A stretch of DNA of 64,000 nucleotides, taken from positions 930,001 through 994,000 of the forward strand of contig NHNY01000002.1 of NCBI GenBank assembly GCA_002786065.1, in the 5' to 3' direction. Each line of letters begins with the position of its first letter. The first letter of the stretch is position 1. Below, in pieces: positions 453-29,133 of this stretch. The DNA is from Microcyclospora pomicola (lineage: Eukaryota > Ascomycota > Dothideomycetes > Capnodiales). The translations under genes were made by a program, and so were the position numbers. Below the pieces are notes generated by a model that was given only the letters and a program-made list of their open reading frames with translations, had not been told where the DNA came from and did not search any database.

Positions 453-2964
453 TCAAGCATTGGATCCTATGCTGGGGTCCGTACGCTCAGTCAATGGATG
501 GTCCTCGACGGTTGGACTGTCACCTCCCTGGCGATCATGCTCCGTAACACTAAGCACACTTCTGTTGCAGCTCGGGCTATCTTTGACAGACTCTTGTTGG
601 TCGAAGAGCAGCTCGCTCGCCCCAGAGTAGGCGGCTTGTAAATAAGGCATCAAGCTGTTGAGAGTCGTGAAGGAAGGCTCCTCACTAATTGACGTTGAGT
701 CTTTCTCGGTCTTGTGGAGTGTATGTGTATCGATTGCTTCTTGATGGCACGCTCCATCAATCTGTGGTTGGTGCAGAGCATTGTAGCGCATATCACGAGC
801 CGAACGGTGCAACTCGAATTCCAGGCGATCACCCATGCCTCGATGGAGACTAAGGGAGTTGTCCGATACGTCAAGCTGCCCAGGATGCTTGACTTGATTC
901 GAAAGGACATCTTCCGGCTTGCTCAACCCCTTGTCCATACTCGTTATCAAGGCAGGCTCGCAGACCTGCTTCAGCTTGACGCTGGTTGGCGAGCTGGAAG
1001 GCTCATGGGGCCACTGATCTGAAGAGGATTTCCAGAAGACCTCGCCAACATCAGTCGTGCGGCTGATCGGACTCGAACGTTGTGGGCTCGAGATCGATTG
1101 GTAAAGTTGGGTGACAAGCGCTTGGCCATGAGTAGGTTCAGTCACCCTGGCTACAGCAAAGTCACCATGATCATATTCGATGCCATCATATTCGGACGGA
1201 AATTCGTCGGCATTGTTGTTGCCAAACAGTTGTCGTGTCTTGAACTCGTTGTAATCCATAAAGTCGTACTCGTCATGGTCCTTATCTTGATGATCCTTGC
1301 TCACAGACTGGTTCGGTGGAGGGTTCGGAGTACTAGCTGGCCAAGGGTACAGGCTGCCTTTTGAGGCAGTCGAATCGTGTCTTGTTGGTGTCTCATGACA
1401 TTCATCATGGGCTTGTGCCCCTGTTCCAGGTCGGGATCCTGCGAAACGAGGTTCAGTTGACAGGCAATGGCTGAACATACAGAAAGACAACATACCTTCG
1501 CTCAGCGCATCAGTGCTTACCACATTGAGCACAGTACGCACAGACTTCGTTGCGCTATCGACCAAAGCGCCGAAGGACTCGACGCTAATCATAGGGCCTG
1601 TTCCGTCGAAGGAAGTGAGGTTTTTGCAACGAAAGGGTAGAACTACACGCCTCGTGGGTGAAGGCGGTCCCGAGGACGCCGCATCGTCGGCGGAAGTCCC
1701 GCAGGCTTTAAGACCAGAAACATCGCGCGTATCTGCGTCTGACAATGGTGCACACTCGCGACCTGGTTGACGTGACAGTTCTTGCATATCGCATGGACAG
1801 GGTGACGTCGTGGGAATGGTTCGATGAGAAAAGGAACTGCCTTCTTCCGGCACGTATGGACCTGGACTTTTACGCGGTGTGTGCGCGCTCCAAGATGACT
1901 TTGTAGCTACCGAGCTCCCGAATTTGGGCACCATTGTGTCTTCGTCGTTTTTGTGGGCAAAAGCACAGGCTTCAGCCATGGCGTCCAAAGAACGCATCGG
2001 ACGAAGCTGAGGGCGGCTTGCTCTCGCCATAACGCTTCTCTCGAACAAGTGGAGGCCTTCAGCATGTGCACCGTCGACTTCGAGGGTGAGATTGGTACCA
2101 GGCATAGGTGACGGGGAGCGATCGAAGAAGCCAAAGTCAAAGCTATCACGAGGAACATCCAAGAGGTCTAGCGTCGGTGCTTTCCTTCCACCACTCGGAC
2201 TGTGCATGACTTCTGTGCTGAAAGGGTCGTTCCCATGCTCTCCAGTGACACTGAGGTTACCTGAAAGTATCTCCTGAGCATCATCGCGTCTCTCATCTGT
2301 GCCGACCTCAGATGTCATGAACCCTTCACGCCCAAAGTGGAGTGATAGTCGTTCCGGTGCTGGCACAGGGATAGGCATTGGCGAAGATGGTAAAGGATAC
2401 TGAGCTGGCAGCCGTACTGGGGAGGCTGCATCTATCATCCTGGACCTTCTTCGACGTAAGCCTCGAAGACTCCCAGCAATGCTGCTCGCCACGCTGTTAC
2501 GCTTTTTGTGGCAGTTCTCTTGTGGGCTCTTCTTCCCTTCATGATCAAGGAGCGATTCTGGTCCATCAGCGCCATCGATTCGGCTCGTTGTGCCGGCAGC
2601 ACTATTCCATGTATTGTAGTTGGGGATGTGCCTACGAAGCGATATGGTAGCATTTCTCGGCATGCGACTGGTTGTCGTGGGGTGCTTGGTGGGTGGGCCT
2701 TCATTCCCTGCCGTGCTACAGCTCCTGGTCAGCAGTGTATCGTGAGGACAATAGTGGCCACGCGACTTACGCCGCAATCTTCTTGGGGAAAATGACCGAC
2801 TCGCCGCGAAAGTTGTCTACGGCCGCTTTGGCATTCAATGCCCCTTTCTGAACAGCTTCTCGCAAAGTATGCATCCATGATCTTTTCTTCCTGATGCTGA
2901 GTGGAGCTTCCAATTGCTCCCGAAGCGCTTCGCATGCTGGCGATTCGTCGGTACTATCAGACAT
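453..2964 (-). CDS. uncharacterised Ser/Pro-rich protein, about 818 aa
   Basis: Exon 1 is 2964-2771 (ATG at 2964, MSDSTDESPACEALREQLE). It ends at a GTAAGT donor, with a 54-bp intron 2770-2717 minus strand and exon 2 from 2715 to the stop at 453; acceptor CTGTAG is at 2721-2716. Joining keeps frame (194 + 2263 nt = 819 codons). The N-terminus is charged and helical with a basic patch (RKKRSWMHTLREAVQKG). Most of the rest is low-complexity Ser/Pro/Asp-rich sequence with no domain I recognise. A second, optional intron, 1495-1439 (57 nt, GTATGT...CAG, no stop in frame), would shorten the protein to 799 aa. Function unknown; a disordered regulatory protein is the most that can be said. Confidence 0.7.
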
Positions 2965-12780: not shown

Positions 12781-14766
12781 TTATCCGCCAGGATCCGCAG
12801 GACTCGAAGCTTCGGTGACTGAATCGCTGAATCTCGACCGCCAAAACTCACTACTCGTAATGTAGTCGCGGATGCTCATTGCACTCGGATACTGTAGAGC
12901 TTTGCGGGCCATATTCTCACATTCTTCATCCCGGAGCTGTCGAGGTAGCTTGGCGGTCAGAAGTTTGACCATGCCAAGACTGCCAATGGCCATCGCCACG
13001 ACCATTGCAGTGTTCTTGTTCGAGTCTAGACGGAACAGATCTGCGCGCGCGTCACATAGTACACGCACACACTCGGCGTTGTCTTGGCCAACTGCAATGT
13101 GGAGAGGTGTCTGTTTCGAGTTGTCCGCGATATCGACAAGGCCGGGGGCAACGACCTTGGCCTCACTGATTATAGCTTCGACTATGTCCCGGCGACCAGT
13201 TTGCACAGCCCTATGCAACACCGTCTCGCCTCCATCGCTTCTGATGGAGAGGTCGGCACCCTTAGCTAGGAGGACGTCTAGAGCTTCTCTGTGTTGTCCA
13301 TCCGCTGCAAACATGATAGCTGACCACCCATTGTCTGCGCGGGCATTGATGTCGCTTCCAGCGTGAATTAGCCATTTAGTGCACTCTGGAAAACCTTCCT
13401 TAGCCGCGAGCATAAGAGCTGTCAATCCAAGATGATTTTTTGCCCGGAGCAATGTGCTATCGTGTGTCCTGGTACTTGTGGCAGCCTTCCTGCGTTCACG
13501 TCCGCGACGGCCGCTCTGGGACCGATTAAATTTACATGCCGGTAAAGTGATATCAAGGATCGACTGAACGGTCTTGAGGCTGCCGGCTTGGGCTGCAAGC
13601 ATCAAAGCATCGTTTCCATCTTGGTCCTTACACTCTTCGCAGGACATGCTTGCACCAAGCTCAATCAAGTGCTGTACACACTCCTCATAGCTTGACCTGT
13701 CTTCGTCCTGCAGATGGAATCCTTGTACGGCAAGCAGTAATGCAGGAGCCGTTCGACAGACATGTGCTTCCTTGACACGTTGATTCATGTGCCCAATCGG
13801 TGCTAATTTCGCTACGCATTTCGACCGGCCGTGTTTGGCGGCGAACATGAGTGCCGTCATGCCTTGACTGTCTTCTAGGTCGAGTATTGCCCACGGGTGG
13901 TTGACCAATCCCCAAGCAGACGATTTCCCGCCGTGAAGTGCGCCCATCTCGCGTTCCGCGGGACCTTGAAATAGTTCTTCCACGCTGTCAACCCTCATGC
14001 GGTTGATAGAAAGAAGATGCTCCACGACAGCATCGTGACCTTGCATGGCCGCCAGCATCAACGGTGTACAATGCTCGATCCTGTTGTAGCCATCTGCTTC
14101 GGTGTGCACTCTGCCATCCCTCACAGCTTCGTAGACCTGGAGGTTGATGGTCGCTTCCAAGGTAGCGTCTTCTGGTTTCTGGACGATGTTCCTCACAATG
14201 TCAACCTGTCCAGAGTAGCATGCTGCGTGGATAGCAGAGCCTACTTCAGTCCCGGACGCGTATGGGTCTGCGCCATGGCTTGTCAGAATATCCACAGCAT
14301 TTTGGTCGTTACGAAGGGCTGCGATACACAGTGGCGATCCGAGCTGCTTACTGACATGGTTGACCGTACAACCACGCTCCACGAGGAGCTCTACAACCGC
14401 GGATGCGAGAGCTCCACGGGAAAGCAAGGCTCTGTGGAGGGGAGTGCAGCCATTCGAGTCTTTGCAGTTCAGCTTGGCATTCTCTTCGAGCAAGCGCTTG
14501 ACGCTGAATAGTGACCCTTCGTGGGCAGCTTGCAGTAAGCTCTCGTTCAATCTTTTGGAGACCTTAGGTTTTCTTTTGCGCAGCTTCTTCGGACTGTTGT
14601 GGACGACTGAGTATGCTGATTAGTACGAATGCAGATAATGACTCCGAAGAGAACACTTACTGGTGGTGTTGTTACCTTGGATGCGGTTAATCGTCTGTGT
14701 GCCAAATACTACACCCTCACTGCCTTCGACGTTGACTCTATCGAAGCTGTTCCCGTTGCCCATCAT
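12781..14766 (-). CDS. ankyrin-repeat protein with N-terminal HET-s-type amyloid motif (putative NOD-less receptor)
   Basis: Exon 1 is 14766-14661 and exon 2 is 14606-12781, joined over a 54-bp intron (GTAAGT, branch TACTAAT, acceptor ACTCAG), phase 1, 643 aa. The ATG at 14766 is the first in its frame. Residues 8-33 carry an amyloid-signalling motif: core V11-T23 (VNVEGSEGVVFGT) followed by NRIQGNN. A basic, NLS-like segment follows (KKLRKRKPK, about 41-49), then roughly eleven diverged ankyrin repeats to the C-terminus (for example TPLHRALLSRG, TPLMLAAMQGH, TALMLAAKEGF, TPLHIAVGQDN). No NACHT, NB-ARC or other STAND ATPase is visible. The motif matches both repeats of the HET-S-like protein encoded immediately upstream on the same strand. 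By analogy with NWD2/HET-S, this would be the ligand-sensing partner that templates the effector's amyloid. Repeats are too diverged to be recent duplications. Confidence 0.85.
14698..14736 (-). other. HRAM-like amyloid motif of the ankyrin protein
   Basis: Encodes residues 11-23, VNVEGSEGVVFGT. Aligned without gaps it gives 4 of 13 identities to effector repeat 1 and 6 of 13 to repeat 2, with Glu at the positions where repeat 2 has Lys. It lies wholly in the first exon, separated by an intron from the ankyrin exon. Confidence 0.75.
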
Positions 14767-15350
14767 GTTGGCCAGCACCGGAGCGCGAGAGTGTAGCTGA
14801 ACAGCAGAGCCAACAAGAAGTGCCTTACTTGTTCGATCGTGCGGCTCGAGCCTAGTCAAAGCCAATGGTTTTGGAGAGCAGAGACACCGCAAGGTTCAGG
14901 GCAAGAGACAAGGCTCTGGAGAGACACGAGGCGGGCGATGTCAAGCCCTGCCTGGAGAAGTCTGGACGGTGGGTGCATGCCCCAGCTATATCCTGGGTGG
15001 AGAAGACAGAGGCCGCCGGCCTTAGTAAGTATGATCCAATCTAAGCTATGACCCACACAGAGTCCCTGTACATCGCAGTACTATGCTACGTCGAATGCCG
15101 CCCCTCCGATACGGGCGTCCTTCGCATTGCAGCACTTTGTATGATGCTCCGCCTGCATCAGCTGCTCCTGCGCCGCCCAAGTACCATCTTGCCAAGGCGA
15201 CTCAAGAAACTACCTACTATCCACATGCTGATCAACTAGACGGAGTAGCATCTGCTCCCGCCATGGGACAAGCACAAAGTCAACAACAGAACATTTGCGA
15301 ACCTCGACCCCAGTCTAAGCCTCGGCTTCATCGAAAATTCTCCCAATTTG
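14767..15350. other. intergenic between effector and ankyrin genes
   Basis: 584 bp between the stop of the HET-S-like gene and the ATG of the ankyrin gene. The ankyrin frame is open upstream to about 14892, but only a TTG is available as a start there. Other small frames (14856-15056) lack coding character. Probably 3' UTR plus promoter. Confidence 0.5.
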
Positions 15351-16329
15351 CTAATTTCCAAACACCACGTTCTTGCTTCGCTTGACCTTAATGACACAAT
15401 ATGAGTTACCGTATTGCACTCTGCTGTCTGTGATTGGCACCTTGTTACCGAAGAGCACATCGTTCGTGTCTTCAAGATCGATATCAGAATACTGATTCCG
15501 GATTGTCAGAGCCACACGACTCAGAGCTGGATCAGCCATCGCGCCTTTCTGTTGCAATATCGCAAGTTTTTCCTGACTTTCTGCACTGTGCGCATCGGGT
15601 GGCACAATATTGGCCATGTCTCTGGCTGCTTGCTCCATTTGTACATCTTTGATGGCTGGGAATAAATTGACGAGACTCTTCACGTTACGTTCAACCTATA
15701 TCCCGGTCAACTTTTGGCACGCTGCCTGAGAAATGCTTGATGGGATCGTATACATTCGTTACCAGCTTCTCCAAGACTTTCGCATCGTACAGCGTCCATT
15801 TAATCTTGTCAAGGACACTGGCCGCCTTATGGTGCTGTTTCAATACCGTGGAGACGCGTTCAGCTAGGTGTACGGTAGCCATAGATGTAGCTGTGTTGGT
15901 CGCAGGTTGGAGAGCGCAGTTGCTAGAGTCCCGTGCCGATCCCGAAGAAGCTCCTTCCCCCTGCGCCTCAAGACGCTTGCTCTTCTCGTATGCGGCGTCG
16001 AAAGCTACCTTGATACTTCCGAGCAGTTTCTTGACAGTCTCCACCTCGCGAGGCGAAGCCGCTGGCAAGCGTTGTTCGAAACCAGCATCCAGAACATCGA
16101 CGAATGTGACACTCTTTTGCCACCGGTTGTAGCATAGATCCGCCAATTCCAGCTGCAGCACCATGTCCTGGTAGTCTTTGCCCAGGTTGCGAGCAGTAAC
16201 GACCTGACGAAAGCAGTCTCTGACCTGTCATTCTGGTAAGTGGGAATCTAAGACCGGCATTGCTATACTAACAGTGCTCGCCAAGGTCACTACGCCCACG
16301 CCTGAAATAACCAATCCTGCAACTTCCAT
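15351..16329 (-). CDS. HET-S-like cell-death effector: HeLo domain plus two amyloid repeats
   Basis: Three exons: 16329-16273, 16224-15763 and 15695-15351. Introns are 48 bp (GTTAGT...GACAG) and 67 bp (GTAACG, branch TTGACC, acceptor ATATAG), both phase 0; product 287 aa, against 289 for Podospora HET-s/HET-S. The N-terminus MEVAGLVISGVGVVTLAST is the Gly-rich hydrophobic helix that HeLo domains insert into membranes. HeLo landmarks follow: ARNLGKDYQDMVLQLELADL with NRWQKSV (HET-S has a similar GRDYERCQLRLDIA...SRWGEAV), and KIKWTLYDAKVLEKLV before LVNLFP (HET-S WALYDGKSLEKIV). The tail from about 242 is prion-forming: R1 core I245-N257, R2 core I275-N287 at the very C-terminus, and an extra RVQYGN at 265-270. 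Unlike HET-s there is no Gly/Phe/Trp tail after R2. Predicted role: membrane-permeabilising executioner triggered by amyloid templating from the ankyrin partner. Confidence 0.88.
15354..15401 (-). other. amyloid repeat R2 of the HET-S-like protein
   Basis: Encodes residues 272-287, YCVIKVKRSKNVVFGN, 30 residues after R1 (36 in HET-s) and ending exactly at the stop. It is basic: K276, K278, R279 and K281. Confidence 0.8.
15444..15491 (-). other. amyloid repeat R1 of the HET-S-like protein
   Basis: Encodes residues 242-257, YSDIDLEDTNDVLFGN. It aligns without gaps to HET-s 230-243 (DIRTEERARVQLGN), sharing D, I, E, V, G and N. It is acidic: D246, E248 and D249 face the basic residues of R2. 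Confidence 0.8.
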
Positions 16330-25412: not shown

Positions 25413-28400
25413 TCAATCCAGGTCCAATTCAATCCTTCGCTGCTCCTCAAATCCGGCTGGCAAGCGATCCCTGAGCCACCTAAAAGTGGCTTCCGTTCCC
25501 TTTTCCAAGATACGATAATTCGGCACTCTGAAAGCATTGCTCCCGATTTCGAAATGTTGGAGACCTTCCTCCCACAACAGACCTATCTCTGCCGGCAGTG
25601 CTTCGATGTCATTGCTGGCAAGATTAACGGTGGTCATGCCACGTAGAGCATCGACGGACACGGACACAAAGCGATTGTCGTTCGCCCAGAGGGTTGTCAG
25701 AACTGGGTACGCCCGCCGCAGCGTCGGCACAGGGCCCACGAGACGGTTTGCAGACACGTTCAGGGACTTGAGACTAGGTGCAGAGAGCTGGGAGATCAAC
25801 GGCTCCAGGGTGCCTAATCGGCAGTTGCTCAACTTCAACTCTGTCAACGCTGGCAGCGCGAGCTCGTCAGAGAAGTAGTCTGAGCCGAGTACGTTACCGG
25901 AGAGGTCTAGCAGCTTAAGGTCCTGTCCAAGCCATAGCGCAGGAGGGACTGCCGTGAGTTTATTTGACTGTAGCAAAAGCTGCTTGACTTCGTTTCCCTT
26001 GAGGAACGAACCCAGGGTATCATTGACATCGTCTGAGAGGTTCTTCGCTGCTAGATCAAGCATACCGTGAGGTTTGATTGGCCACACTCCATGCGCGCTG
26101 TTTCTAGACATGAAAGAATCTGGCGCATCGACGAACTCGTCATCTGTATGAACATCGTCTCCCACATCGTCGGGCTCGATCCTCGATTTGAGTTCGCGTC
26201 GGATGTCTGCGGCGCTCATGGTCAGGAACTTTTTCTCCCGTAGTGGGTTTGCAGACAATATCAAGATGTCGAGTGCATCCATGTTGCCAATATCGAGGTC
26301 CAATATCTTGATCTCATTACTGGCTAAATTGACATTGCGCAGCTTCTTCAGATCTGTGAAACCAGCAGGCAGATCACACATTTTGTTCTCGCTAGCTAGA
26401 AGCGTGTGAAGCTCGGACCAAAGTCCCATGGGCGGCAGTATTGTCATATGATTGTTCGTTACCCTGAGTTCCGTGAGTCGAGGTAGACCCAGTGATTGCG
26501 AGAATGTCAAAGCAGCAAGAGAATTGTGCGATACATCGACAGTTTTAAGCGTTTGGTGCACGTAGTTGTCATCAAGCGGGAAGAGAGAGCCGATTAATGC
26601 GTTATTGCTGGCATCTAATTCGACGAGAGGTAGTTGCTGAATGGCTTCCATGGGCAATGCAGTGAGTTGATTACCGGCAAGGTTGAGCACTTTCAGGCTC
26701 ACCAGATTACGTAGAGCTTCGGGAAGTCCTAGTAGACGGTTGTGCTGGACGTCAAGAACTTCCAGCTGTGGAAGATTACATATCGTCGGCGGCAAATTGC
26801 CAGATAGGGCGTTATGCCCAAGCTTGATCTCTTTCAACGTTGCGATCTGAGAAATGATGTCAAACACCGAACTTTCTAGCTTGTTACGCGCCAAGTCGAG
26901 CACGGTCAGCCTTTGCAATCTTTGCAGACCCAAAGGTACAGACGTGAGGGAGTTTCCGTGCAAATCAAGTGTTTCGAGTCCGCCGAACTGGTTACCGGTC
27001 GTATTTTCATCTGATGCCAGATCTTCCGCGGATATATCGGGAAACACGTCGTCCCGGATGATCTCGAGTTCGTTATCAGCTGCAACGAATCTCGTGAGAT
27101 CCACCACTTCGGCCCAATTAACGTTCGCCTCTTCAATCGCGCTGGGCTCGAACATTGTCAGAACTTCGTCAGGAATATCTTTGAGACTCAAAGCGGAGAT
27201 GTTCAATTTGCCGTCCATACGTGCAGTGTTGACGCGATTACGCAATATATGTTTTTCGTCCCGAGGTGCCTGATTGAATGGATTGGCATGATATACAGGT
27301 CCAAATGGGTCAGTCTCTCCAGAGGCGGTTGCTAAGGGAGAATCATGCATGGCCTTTTCCTTTTCTCGCCGTGCAGCAGCTTTAGCGGCTGCAATTTGCT
27401 CTCGTAAAGCTGCGGAGCTGGCGTTCGCAGGGCCCGAGAGTGCTCGTCGTGCAGGCTTTAGCTGTATTGGATCAGCTTGCGCTGCATCGTCTGCTTGATC
27501 GAGACTTGACGCGGGCGCAGGGTCGGAAGCCTTGTCAATTGCGACTCGTGGCTTGATAGGCCTCAGAGCGACCGACTCTTTATTTTCATCGCTCGCCGAA
27601 CCAGGTCGTCCACCTGGAAGTGTCCCTGGCACTTTTGACGGCGATCGTGTTCGCGCACAAGCGCGGAAAGCACTCTTCTGCTCGAGCGCGCGGGGAGTGA
27701 ACGCAGCGCTGACGCTACGACGGTTTGTGGAGCTTGGAGTAAATCCAAATCCTCCGAGAGTCCTGGTGGCTGGCTTGGCACTAGCGAACACTCTTCTTGT
27801 CGGCGAGGAAGCCCGACTTGATGGACGAGGGTACAAGCCGTCACTCGTACCCGGGCGACTACTGTTACTCCCATTGCGGCTCAGGGCAGATATCGGACGT
27901 GGCGGCGGTCCCATGGGAGACTCTGCAGGGTTGTAGAAGTCGGATCTCCTCCAGTCCTTTGGGGTCGATGGTATATTCTGAAGACTCTCGATGGCGCGAT
28001 CTGACAGTGACGGCCGGGAGTGCTTTTTCTTACTAGGTTGAGACAATTTTGCTGGTAAGTCGCCATTTTCTTGTGTGTCGAACTCGTGTTCGACGACCGA
28101 TCCCTGTCTGGAAACAGAGCGAAACTGGTCCAAGGAGCCAAGCTGATCATCCGTCTCACCTAATTCACGTCGGTTCTCTGTCGCGGTAGATGGCCGGGTA
28201 GTCTGCGGAGTGTTGCGAGTATAAGTTATCGACCCTTTGCTTCCAGTTGAGGATTTTGATATTGTTGAGACTCGTCGAGTATTGTTAAGGGGGCCATCAC
28301 GTGATACTGGCGGTCGAGAAGTGGCGGTGGGCTTTACACTCGTGGATACACGCCCGAACGATGCAATGGAGGAGCGTTTCTGCAGCCTCGAAGTTCCAGG

Positions 28401-28553
28401 AGTCGGCGTTGCTTTCACTGGCTCTACTGCTGGACGTGCCTTTGGCTGGGGAAGGGAGGAGTTCCTCTTATTGATGTTATCCAGTACTGGAAGTTTAGAA
28501 GCAGGCCTAGGAAGAGCGGAAGTCTTGCCCGCCGTTGCCGACTGTGAATCCAT
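25413..28553 (-). CDS. leucine-rich-repeat protein, 1046 aa
   Basis: Single exon; the ATG at 28553 (MDSQSATAGKTSALPRP) is the first in frame. Residues 1-430 are disordered, rich in Ser, Pro, Arg and Thr. From about 470 a long array of LRRs of 22-24 residues begins, with consensus LxxLxLxxNxLxxLP (LETLDLHGNSLTSVPLGL, LEVLDVQHNRLLGLPEAL, LKVLNLAGNQLTALP). A non-LRR break carries acidic residues (EPDDVGDDVHTDDEFVDAPD), then a second LRR block follows to near the C-terminus, where a short motif (GTEATFRWLRDRLP) closes it. The pattern is that of LRRC40/SHOC2-type intracellular LRRs, a scaffold role. No enzymatic domain is seen and the exact fungal orthologue is not recognised. Confidence 0.85.
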   Translation of the reverse strand: MDSQSATAGKTSALPRPASKLPVLDNINKRNSSLPQPKARPAVEPVKATPTPGTSRLQKRSSIASFGRVSTSVKPTATSRPPVSRDGPLNNTRRVSTISKSSTGSKGSITYTRNTPQTTRPSTATENRRELGETDDQLGSLDQFRSVSRQGSVVEHEFDTQENGDLPAKLSQPSKKKHSRPSLSDRAIESLQNIPSTPKDWRRSDFYNPAESPMGPPPRPISALSRNGSNSSRPGTSDGLYPRPSSRASSPTRRVFASAKPATRTLGGFGFTPSSTNRRSVSAAFTPRALEQKSAFRACARTRSPSKVPGTLPGGRPGSASDENKESVALRPIKPRVAIDKASDPAPASSLDQADDAAQADPIQLKPARRALSGPANASSAALREQIAAAKAAARREKEKAMHDSPLATASGETDPFGPVYHANPFNQAPRDEKHILRNRVNTARMDGKLNISALSLKDIPDEVLTMFEPSAIEEANVNWAEVVDLTRFVAADNELEIIRDDVFPDISAEDLASDENTTGNQFGGLETLDLHGNSLTSVPLGLQRLQRLTVLDLARNKLESSVFDIISQIATLKEIKLGHNALSGNLPPTICNLPQLEVLDVQHNRLLGLPEALRNLVSLKVLNLAGNQLTALPMEAIQQLPLVELDASNNALIGSLFPLDDNYVHQTLKTVDVSHNSLAALTFSQSLGLPRLTELRVTNNHMTILPPMGLWSELHTLLASENKMCDLPAGFTDLKKLRNVNLASNEIKILDLDIGNMDALDILILSANPLREKKFLTMSAADIRRELKSRIEPDDVGDDVHTDDEFVDAPDSFMSRNSAHGVWPIKPHGMLDLAAKNLSDDVNDTLGSFLKGNEVKQLLLQSNKLTAVPPALWLGQDLKLLDLSGNVLGSDYFSDELALPALTELKLSNCRLGTLEPLISQLSAPSLKSLNVSANRLVGPVPTLRRAYPVLTTLWANDNRFVSVSVDALRGMTTVNLASNDIEALPAEIGLLWEEGLQHFEIGSNAFRVPNYRILEKGTEATFRWLRDRLPAGFEEQRRIELDLD

Positions 28554-29133
28554 GATTGTGTTCCAGGCCTCGCACCAAGGAGGTGATCGAGATGCGGTAT
28601 TTAGCTGAAGCCGCCGGAGACCAGTCAAGGAAGAGGCTTCACCATTGAAGAAACGTATCGGTATGGCATACTTCGCCGCATTATTGGATTTTAGGGGTCA
28701 GCAGTCGAAATCACGCCAGTATCAGGGTAGTGAATACAGTTTGGCGGCGCGTCCGGTAGTCGTTGCGTCCTAGCAACCGTTTGACTTTCCGTCTCAGGTA
28801 CCCAGCCATTTCCAGTGGGAGCCTCCCCGCCACCACTTCACTCCCTGGGCGGGAATATGCAGTTTACTTGCAACACAGTGAACGAAAACTTCATGTTCAT
28901 TTGATCAATAAGTGTGCTGTTCTCTCCAGAAGCCATTCGTGAAAGCACTTGGTCGCGACTTGGAGCGAAGAGGCCATCACTTGAGTATATCGATTATATC
29001 CGCCGGCTTACTTTCCGCACACCCCGAGCGCAACTTGACCGGTCAACAATCCGCGGCCACTCGACCAGCAGCGTCCACGACCATTCTTGAGCCTCGACCT
29101 CCCCAAGGGACGAGAACTGCTCGGTCGCGCAGC
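28554..29133. other. divergent promoter region
   Basis: 580 bp between divergent starts. The coiled-coil gene's frame is open back to 28912 but has no ATG before 29134. Nothing else recognised. Confidence 0.5.

Follow-up and report, generated by a model that had tools for sequence, protein, structure and literature searches.

A HeLo effector with a doubled HRAM motif, encoded next to a protein that carries one N-terminal copy of the same motif, is the layout known from HET-S and NWD2 (PMC3321046, PMC4518210). The receptors of fungal amyloid signalling are described as NLRs, and surveys define them by a nucleotide-binding domain (PMC9815663, PMC12258605, PMC4986451). Of the 155 double-repeat proteins in the main HRAM survey, which began from HeLo-type proteins, 98 are reported to have an NLR as immediate neighbour; the remaining 57 have none there (PMC4518210). 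Four point mutations in the NACHT domain of NWD2 abolished its prion-inducing activity (PMC4344463). According to the same source, NWD2(1-30)-GFP can assemble and bring about the prion state though it has no NACHT domain, so that templating does not physically require a NOD; the paper also tells of another study in which NWD2(1-30) was insufficient in mammalian cells (PMC4344463). In the accessible text of the open-licence literature we found no NOD-less ankyrin partner in print.

The window analysed here, a stretch of 64,000 nucleotides from Microcyclospora pomicola, holds two neighbouring genes on the same strand, 584 bp apart, the second of which carries a single motif copy at the N-terminus of its predicted product, as in a pair of the HET-S/NWD2 type. 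Their features, as predicted from the sequence, are the following.

15351..16329, minus strand: HeLo gene, exons 16329-16273, 16224-15763 and 15695-15351 (stop included), 287 aa, candidate cell-death executioner
16273..16329, minus strand: exon 1 of the HeLo gene, a hydrophobic N-terminal segment whose first 20 residues are 17/20 identical to those of P0001, a relative's protein
14767..15350, minus strand: spacer between the HeLo gene and the ankyrin gene, 584 bp, with no NOD match
12781..14766, minus strand: ankyrin gene, exons 14766-14661 and 14606-12781 (stop included), 643 aa, with an N-terminal motif (r0) followed by an ankyrin array
14607..14660, minus strand: putative intron between the r0 exon and the ankyrin exon, 54 nt, with a GTAAGT donor, a CTAAT branch-like site and a CAG acceptor

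The introns of the HeLo gene would measure 48 nt (GTTAGT...CAG) and 67 nt (GTAACG...TAG). The same frames allow further splice choices; we kept those that give the best fit to the HeLo family. The predicted protein matches the Pfam HeLo profile (PF14479) with 84.2 bits for a cut-off of 23.2, over nearly the entire domain (residues 5-200 of the protein, positions 1-193 of the 205 of the profile), in the profile search that the first-pass annotation had proposed. Its closest solved structure is the HeLo domain of HET-s (PDB 2wvn, E=7e-13), and it is 46% identical to P0001, a HeLo protein filed under Quercus suber and probably derived from a contaminating fungus. It is likely a membrane-killing protein. 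It ends in two 18-residue repeats of the HET-s-related (HRAM) pattern. The earlier description of adjacent same-strand genes, one of them for a 287-aa HeLo protein with two repeats, is borne out: coordinates and gene models were reproduced. Introns in the places that it named, next to the motif exon and the HeLo start, look plausible on sequence grounds. The matching motif that it saw in the first exon of the ankyrin gene was recovered as r0. Aligned without gaps, the three motifs correspond to HRAM positions 3-20.

15497-15444, minus strand: R1, first HRAM repeat of the HeLo protein, residues 240-257, NQYSDIDLEDTNDVLFGN
15407-15354, minus strand: R2, second HRAM repeat of the HeLo protein, residues 270-287, NSYCVIKVKRSKNVVFGN; the protein stops at the last residue of R2
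14751-14698, minus strand: r0, single HRAM copy of the ankyrin protein, residues 6-23, NSFDRVNVEGSEGVVFGT

If Y and F are counted as hydrophobic, the core positions 5, 8, 10, 16 and 18 are hydrophobic or aromatic in all 15 cells of R1, R2 and r0, and G19 is present in all three, as it is in both repeats of P0001; hydrophobic core positions and G19 belong to the HRAM description (PMC4518210). The loop from position 20 of R1 to position 3 of R2 has 12 residues, or 9 by a 21-residue count, within the 6-18 expected for HRAMs. An alternative second repeat around 'RVQYGNSY' was dropped in favour of the register in which the last G falls on position 19, the better fit. Several customary traits are missing. 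Position 15, where HRAMs prefer R or K, is D, N and G in R1, R2 and r0, and D and N in P0001; this is a preference and no absolute rule, according to PMC4518210. The protein terminates at position 20 of R2, without the aromatic/glycine tail that is frequent, if not universal, behind the second repeat (PMC4518210). The canonical HET-s prion domain PF11558, the other profile search proposed at first pass, gave no match in the HeLo protein at E 1. The same profile had no match in the genome, where no control gave a signal either, and it is reported to match only 38 of the 155 published double-repeat proteins (PMC4518210). A profile of the R1-R2 region searched against solved structures found no HET-s fibril.

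The single motif resembles R2 (8/18 identities) more than R1 (5/18), a tendency also described in HRAM1 and HRAM4 (PMC4518210), and it begins at residue 6, while the HRAMs of NLRs are said to lie mostly at positions 5-9 (PMC9815663). Charges are opposite between R1 and R2 at positions 9, 11 and 12 (in P0001 at 11, 12 and 14) and between r0 and R2 at positions 11 and 14, and r0 placed on R1 makes one opposite and one like pair; this opposite-charge stacking is not significant alone, 3,060 and 1,726 of 20,000 shuffles being equally good. The motif r0 carries four charged residues (D6, R7, E11, E14), whose charges repel in a homotypic stack; according to PMC4518210, the r0 motifs of NLRs tend toward fewer charged residues.

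How far the match might be fortuitous was gauged against the 74,352 stop-free six-frame 18-mers of the window. A profile built from R1 and R2 alone put r0 third (35.5), behind R1 and R2 themselves, the next 18-mer (22.5) lying inside a leucine-rich-repeat ORF. With a profile that used only the two P0001 repeats, R1, R2 and r0 took the first three ranks (34.5, 34.0 and 34.0; next 15.5). Shuffles of the exon-1 peptide reached the score of r0 twice in 200,000. Both scans and the shuffles lead us to reject r0 as a chance match. Genome peptide searches for r0 and for R1-R2 returned no further copies and one candidate each, which marks these searches as low in sensitivity.

On the ankyrin side, the first methionine past the exon junction is residue 219, well within the repeats, and an upstream start exon is therefore needed. 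An alternative acceptor 9 nt earlier would give a protein of 646 aa. Exon 2 encodes the ankyrin repeats (PF12796, 199 bits, 7 stretches; PF00023, 8 stretches), an array that supplies the C-terminal superstructure-forming repeats by which an NLR/STAND protein is recognised. The nucleotide-binding part is what could not be found: Pfam gave no NACHT, NB-ARC or other NTPase match in the ankyrin protein, exon 2 matching ankyrin only and exon 1 nothing. We considered three hiding places. Within the protein, a single P-loop-like string (residues 257-264) has no Pfam NTPase match, and the string is not in P0002, the ankyrin protein of the relative. To be concealed elsewhere at the locus, a NOD would have to fit in the intron (54 nt) or in the spacer (584 bp), and there is no NOD match in the window. 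Finally, no NLR stands next door among the eight flanking ORFs scanned, which encode Nup93, a tubulin-tyrosine-ligase-family gene, homoserine dehydrogenase, MCM10, RNase H2B, Dus, an LRR protein and one product with no match; with the ankyrin exon, the ORFs scanned amount to 9 of the 32 of at least 200 aa in the window. Genome matches to PF24883, NACHT and NB-ARC all fall outside the window, the closest on the contig more than 70 kb beyond it.

The HeLo domain and its repeats are conserved in P0001, and the ankyrin protein is conserved in P0002, which is collinear with it and 55% identical over residues 34-642 (612 aligned columns). The similarity starts at residue 34, two residues ahead of the junction codon. 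P0002 has ankyrin Pfam matches only and no nucleotide-binding domain, and a collinear protein at this distance means that an architecture free of NOD is probably old and has been kept. As annotated, P0002 lacks r0 (best 18-mer 4.8, against 39.6-47.4 for the motifs), and its N-terminus is different. P0001, for its part, seems to include intron 2 as protein, and for this reason the gene models of that source look rough. A HeLo profile search for more relatives returned P0001 only; among the matches listed, in one search 120 of 3,384 with many of them unnamed, no entry bears the name of a fungus. The protein collection searched is therefore apparently poor in fungi, and these two relatives are what it showed.

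We propose that the two genes form a cell-death module with amyloid signalling, whose receptor side lacks a NOD and is gated by ankyrin repeats, a reading that we hold to be reasonably probable, amyloid formation, templating and killing being the inferred part of it. At rest, R1-R2 would be unfolded and r0 kept apart or dilute. Ligand binding, clustering or local concentration of the ankyrin array, taken by analogy as the sensor, would then gather several r0 copies and let them fold into a beta-solenoid. This solenoid would template R1-R2, r0 stacking best on R2, to which it is opposite in charge at positions 11 and 14, after which the HeLo domain would refold and expose its N-terminal hydrophobic helix, with membrane damage as the outcome. 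As the ankyrin protein has no NTPase match, some other gating of nucleation must be assumed: it might be clustering mediated by the ankyrin repeats, or dose, in place of ATP-driven oligomerisation by a NACHT/NB-ARC ring. The amyloid-type tag common to the two predicted proteins suggests that the killer is turned on by the ankyrin protein, with no need of the ATP-driven receptor part of known pairs. No amyloid precedent for ligand control without NOD was found in the accessible literature, and this counts against the circuit, as do the loss of NWD2 activity on NACHT mutation, the insufficiency of NWD2(1-30) told for mammalian cells, P0002 without r0, position 15 without R/K, the missing tail, the silent PF11558, the R1-R2 profile that matched no solved HET-s fibril, the stacking charges without significance of their own and the charged r0. 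A bolder claim is that of a ligand-gated prion switch without NTPase, where clustering of ankyrin repeats would by itself nucleate a HET-s-type solenoid and this would set off a HeLo pore-former, and that of a whole class of NOD-less amyloid receptors missed by surveys starting from nucleotide-binding-domain genes. For that claim we consider the balance to be even.

The same features might be read the other way round, with the ankyrin protein as a brake: it would restrain the HeLo protein by a heterotypic contact of r0 with R2, or cap growing fibrils, and loss of the ankyrin protein would release killing. We found no oligomerisation domain in the ankyrin protein, and the charges of r0, which repel homotypically and pair with R2 at 11 and 14, would suit capping over self-nucleation. 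However, the r0/R1/R2 pairs described in PMC4344463 and PMC7889193 are activators, and the accessible text of neither paper mentions an N-terminal r0 that caps, so that this role seems to us unlikely. A true NLR elsewhere in the genome might also be the activating receptor, the ankyrin protein then being an adaptor or amplifier that shares its motif. The genome does hold NLR-type genes (over the cut-off are 22 of 30 matches to PF24883, 11 of 15 to NACHT and 5 of 7 to NB-ARC, many being the same place matched twice), and in other fungi unlinked genes are suspected to signal to each other (PMC9815663). Yet among 57 other loci (52 nucleotide-binding-domain matches, one ankyrin and four HeLo-like), scanned over some 1.5 kb on either side of the match, the best 18-mer score was no higher than 15.2, where the motifs reach 39.6-47.4; such a scan would not catch a motif interrupted by an intron or located further upstream. 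A distant receptor of this kind appears to be quite unlikely.

That the ankyrin gene is a decayed NLR, its NOD lost and its signalling ended, is very improbable: fungal receptors joining amyloid motif, NACHT and ankyrin repeats do exist, as het-eN (PMC3321046), but here the 643-aa frame is open, the collinear P0002 is itself without NOD, at a limit of E 1e-10 the genome shows no close paralogue of the ankyrin gene (one further match, 32% over 168 aa), and the r0 and ankyrin exons are just 54 nt apart. Least credible of all is an exon-1 motif that matches by chance or stays outside the ankyrin transcript, for although the joining of exons is a prediction from sequence, the annotated P0002 N-terminus differs and the r0 frame could end within the intron as a 48-residue peptide, r0 stands 13 and 18.5 units above the next 18-mer in the two scans, donor and acceptor are of consensus type, homology with P0002 already begins before the junction, and the differing N-terminus comes from a source with gene models that look rough.

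If the NOD-less module is what we propose, an ankyrin partner without NOD would offer a concrete, searchable answer for some of the 57 HRAM proteins left without an adjacent NLR. It would also open a testable question: what are the minimal needs of a templating receptor, and how is self-firing avoided when r0 alone can assemble?

The ses locus of Nectria haematococca (sigma motif), with het-eN, also has an ankyrin partner with an N-terminal motif, and there too homology was first overlooked owing to an intron (PMC3321046); by contrast, het-eN has a NACHT domain and the sigma motif is of another class. The pairs of fungal gasdermins with repeat proteases are likewise two-gene death modules, the sensors of which, according to PMC12881547, may fuse the signalling part to WD40, TPR or ankyrin repeats without NOD; these are activated by proteolysis, not by amyloid templating. 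Pairs of the HRAM2-5 classes, such as HELLF/FNT1, share the doubled motif on a HeLo or HeLo-like protein, the single motif on a partner, the core hydrophobic pattern and G19, but their described partners are NLRs, and the class-marking Q3, H3, Q18 and Q16 are missing from R1, R2 and r0 (R2 of P0001 does have Q3). Closest is HET-S/NWD2 of Podospora anserina (HRAM1), with an effector of 289 aa for 287 here, two C-terminal repeats, a gene next door that contributes a single N-terminal copy, an N at motif position 3 and r0 closest to R2; what sets the present pair apart is a motif without R/K15, the lack of a match to PF11558 and a partner with ankyrin repeats only, NWD2 being a NACHT-WD40 protein in which NACHT is needed. 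The first-pass view of the 'same kind of circuit' is supported for the layout, the doubled C-terminal HRAM with a single N-terminal copy next door, and is not supported for the receptor, NWD2 being an NLR and the ankyrin protein having neither NACHT nor NB-ARC. Judged from its predicted proteins, the pair is of the known HET-S/NWD2-type layout, and what differs is a presumed receptor without NOD.

Two neighbouring genes, lying 584 bp apart and both on the minus strand, share a short motif that the product of the first, a HeLo protein, carries as two repeats (R1 and R2) and that of the second, an ankyrin protein, as a single N-terminal copy (r0). Genes contain introns in this genome (23.4 Mb, 58 contigs), whose HeLo and NLR-type genes suggest a filamentous fungus. 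The two models, built from the sequence, read as follows.

16329-16273, 16224-15763 and 15695-15351, minus strand: HeLo gene, 287 aa
HeLo protein residues 240-257: repeat R1, 18 residues
HeLo protein residues 270-287, the C-terminal end: repeat R2, 18 residues
14766-14661 and 14606-12781, minus strand: ankyrin gene, 643 aa
ankyrin protein residues 6-23: r0, single copy

The HeLo protein matches the HeLo family in Pfam (84.2 bits, residues 5-200), and a sequence search of solved structures yields 2wvn, the HeLo domain of HET-s (listed as ‘small s protein’), at 7e-13. Exon 1 of the ankyrin gene comprises 35 codons, followed by ankyrin repeats (PF12796, 199 bits). Were its 54-nt intron retained, the r0 frame would terminate within it (14766-14620, minus strand), leaving a 48-residue peptide that is nearly r0 alone and possibly a dose-controlled seed. 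A single further HeLo gene turned up in the genome (locus L001, 1402-2817; HeLo match at 269774-270487 of contig C34; 472-aa open frame, 127 bits), and the 30 kb surrounding it are free of HRAM-like stretches, the top 18-mer scoring 16.6. Loci L063 (contig C22, 273195-273665) and L064 (contig C44, 2982-3440) match PF17111 (HeLo-like) with 11 and 7 in-frame stops respectively, reflecting either decay of the copies or read-through introns.

R1, R2 and r0 align without gaps. Numbered as positions 3-20 of the HET-s-related amyloid motif (HRAM), they have N3, V16, F18 and G19 in common and are all hydrophobic or aromatic at positions 5, 8, 10, 16 and 18, the hydrophobic core that, with G19, is described for HRAMs (PMC4518210). 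The class marks printed there (N3, no Q16 or Q18) make HRAM1 the nearest class. Departures are the lack of R/K at position 15 and of any tail after R2. PF11558, the HET-s prion domain, finds no match in the HeLo protein; it matched 38 of the 155 double-repeat proteins reported in that source, the majority being without a match.

In a scan of all 74,352 stop-free 18-mers of the window in six frames, a profile made from R1 and R2 alone ranked r0 third (35.5), behind the two repeats themselves. The next 18-mer (22.5) lies near 26639, inside a 1,094-aa leucine-rich-repeat frame (25413-28697, minus strand). Another open frame of the window, of 787 aa (453-2816, minus strand), has no Pfam match at E 0.001. 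A stricter control takes its reference from another organism: the two repeats of P0001, the one relative of the HeLo protein retrieved by protein search (46% identical, full length), in a register chosen by eye prior to the scan, placed R1 (34.5), R2 (34.0) and r0 (34.0) at ranks 1-3, the next score being 15.5.

P0001 keeps both repeats, core pattern included. For the ankyrin protein, too, the protein search gave one close relative, P0002, with 55% identity across 612 alignment columns; the following matches reach at most 35%. Both are labelled Quercus suber and are probably fungal, because a decontamination study picked 7,955 fungal-specific proteins out of that genome (PMC10831095); their source is most likely a contaminating fungus on cork oak. 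P0001 has 23 additional residues at the site of the HeLo gene's 67-nt intron 2, apparently a translated, unspliced intron, so that the Quercus suber-labelled gene models look rough. The P0002 alignment begins at ankyrin-protein residue 34, two residues ahead of the intron-split codon; its annotated N-terminus differs and is without the HRAM motif. Either the oak fungus truly lacks r0 or the first exon is mis-annotated, and we lean towards the latter.

Pfam scans of the ankyrin protein and of P0002 gave no match to NACHT, NB-ARC or any other NTPase. A P-loop-like string, GxxxxGKS, occupies residues 257-264 of the ankyrin protein (13944-13921, minus strand); it falls in no Pfam NTPase match and is missing from P0002. 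Judged by its sequence, the ankyrin protein is not an NLR, with no detectable nucleotide-binding domain (NOD). Of the eight flanking ORFs scanned, one encodes an LRR protein, one lacks any match and the rest are housekeeping genes. The gene pair, the HeLo domain, the sharing of the motif and the absence of a detectable NOD can be considered established at this level.

In Podospora anserina, the N-terminal motif of the NLR NWD2 templates the HET-S repeats, thereby activating the HeLo domain, and point mutations in the NACHT domain abolish this; NWD2(1-30)-GFP, without NACHT, assembles and induces the prion, and NWD2(1-30) is reported to be insufficient in mammalian cells (all in PMC4344463). 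In the most likely reading of the present pair, ankyrin-mediated clustering or concentration would let r0 segments meet; r0 might stack onto R2, with E11 opposed to K11 and E14 to K14, R1-R2 assembly would come next, and the HeLo domain would then damage the membrane. The charge pairing, equalled by 3,060 and 1,726 of 20,000 shuffles, is a weak argument by itself.

First among the rivals, the ankyrin protein might act as a brake. Second comes an unlinked NLR: searches of the genome gave 52 nucleotide-binding-domain hits, none inside the window, and 57 loci (these 52, one ankyrin and four HeLo-like matches) gave no 18-mer above 15.2, vs 39.6-47.4 for R1, R2 and r0, in a scan reaching about 1.5 kb either side of the domain match, which an intron-split motif would escape. 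Third, the ankyrin protein might be a decayed NLR. An artefact ranks last, shuffled exon-1 peptides reaching r0's score in 2 of 200,000 cases.

The module's parts and logic are already known; the combination of r0 and ankyrin repeats without a NOD was not found in the literature searched. Receptor surveys in that literature start at NB-domain genes, and this type could therefore have escaped notice. For fungal gasdermin pairs, sensors without a NOD are described, but there the signalling part is a protease (PMC12881547).
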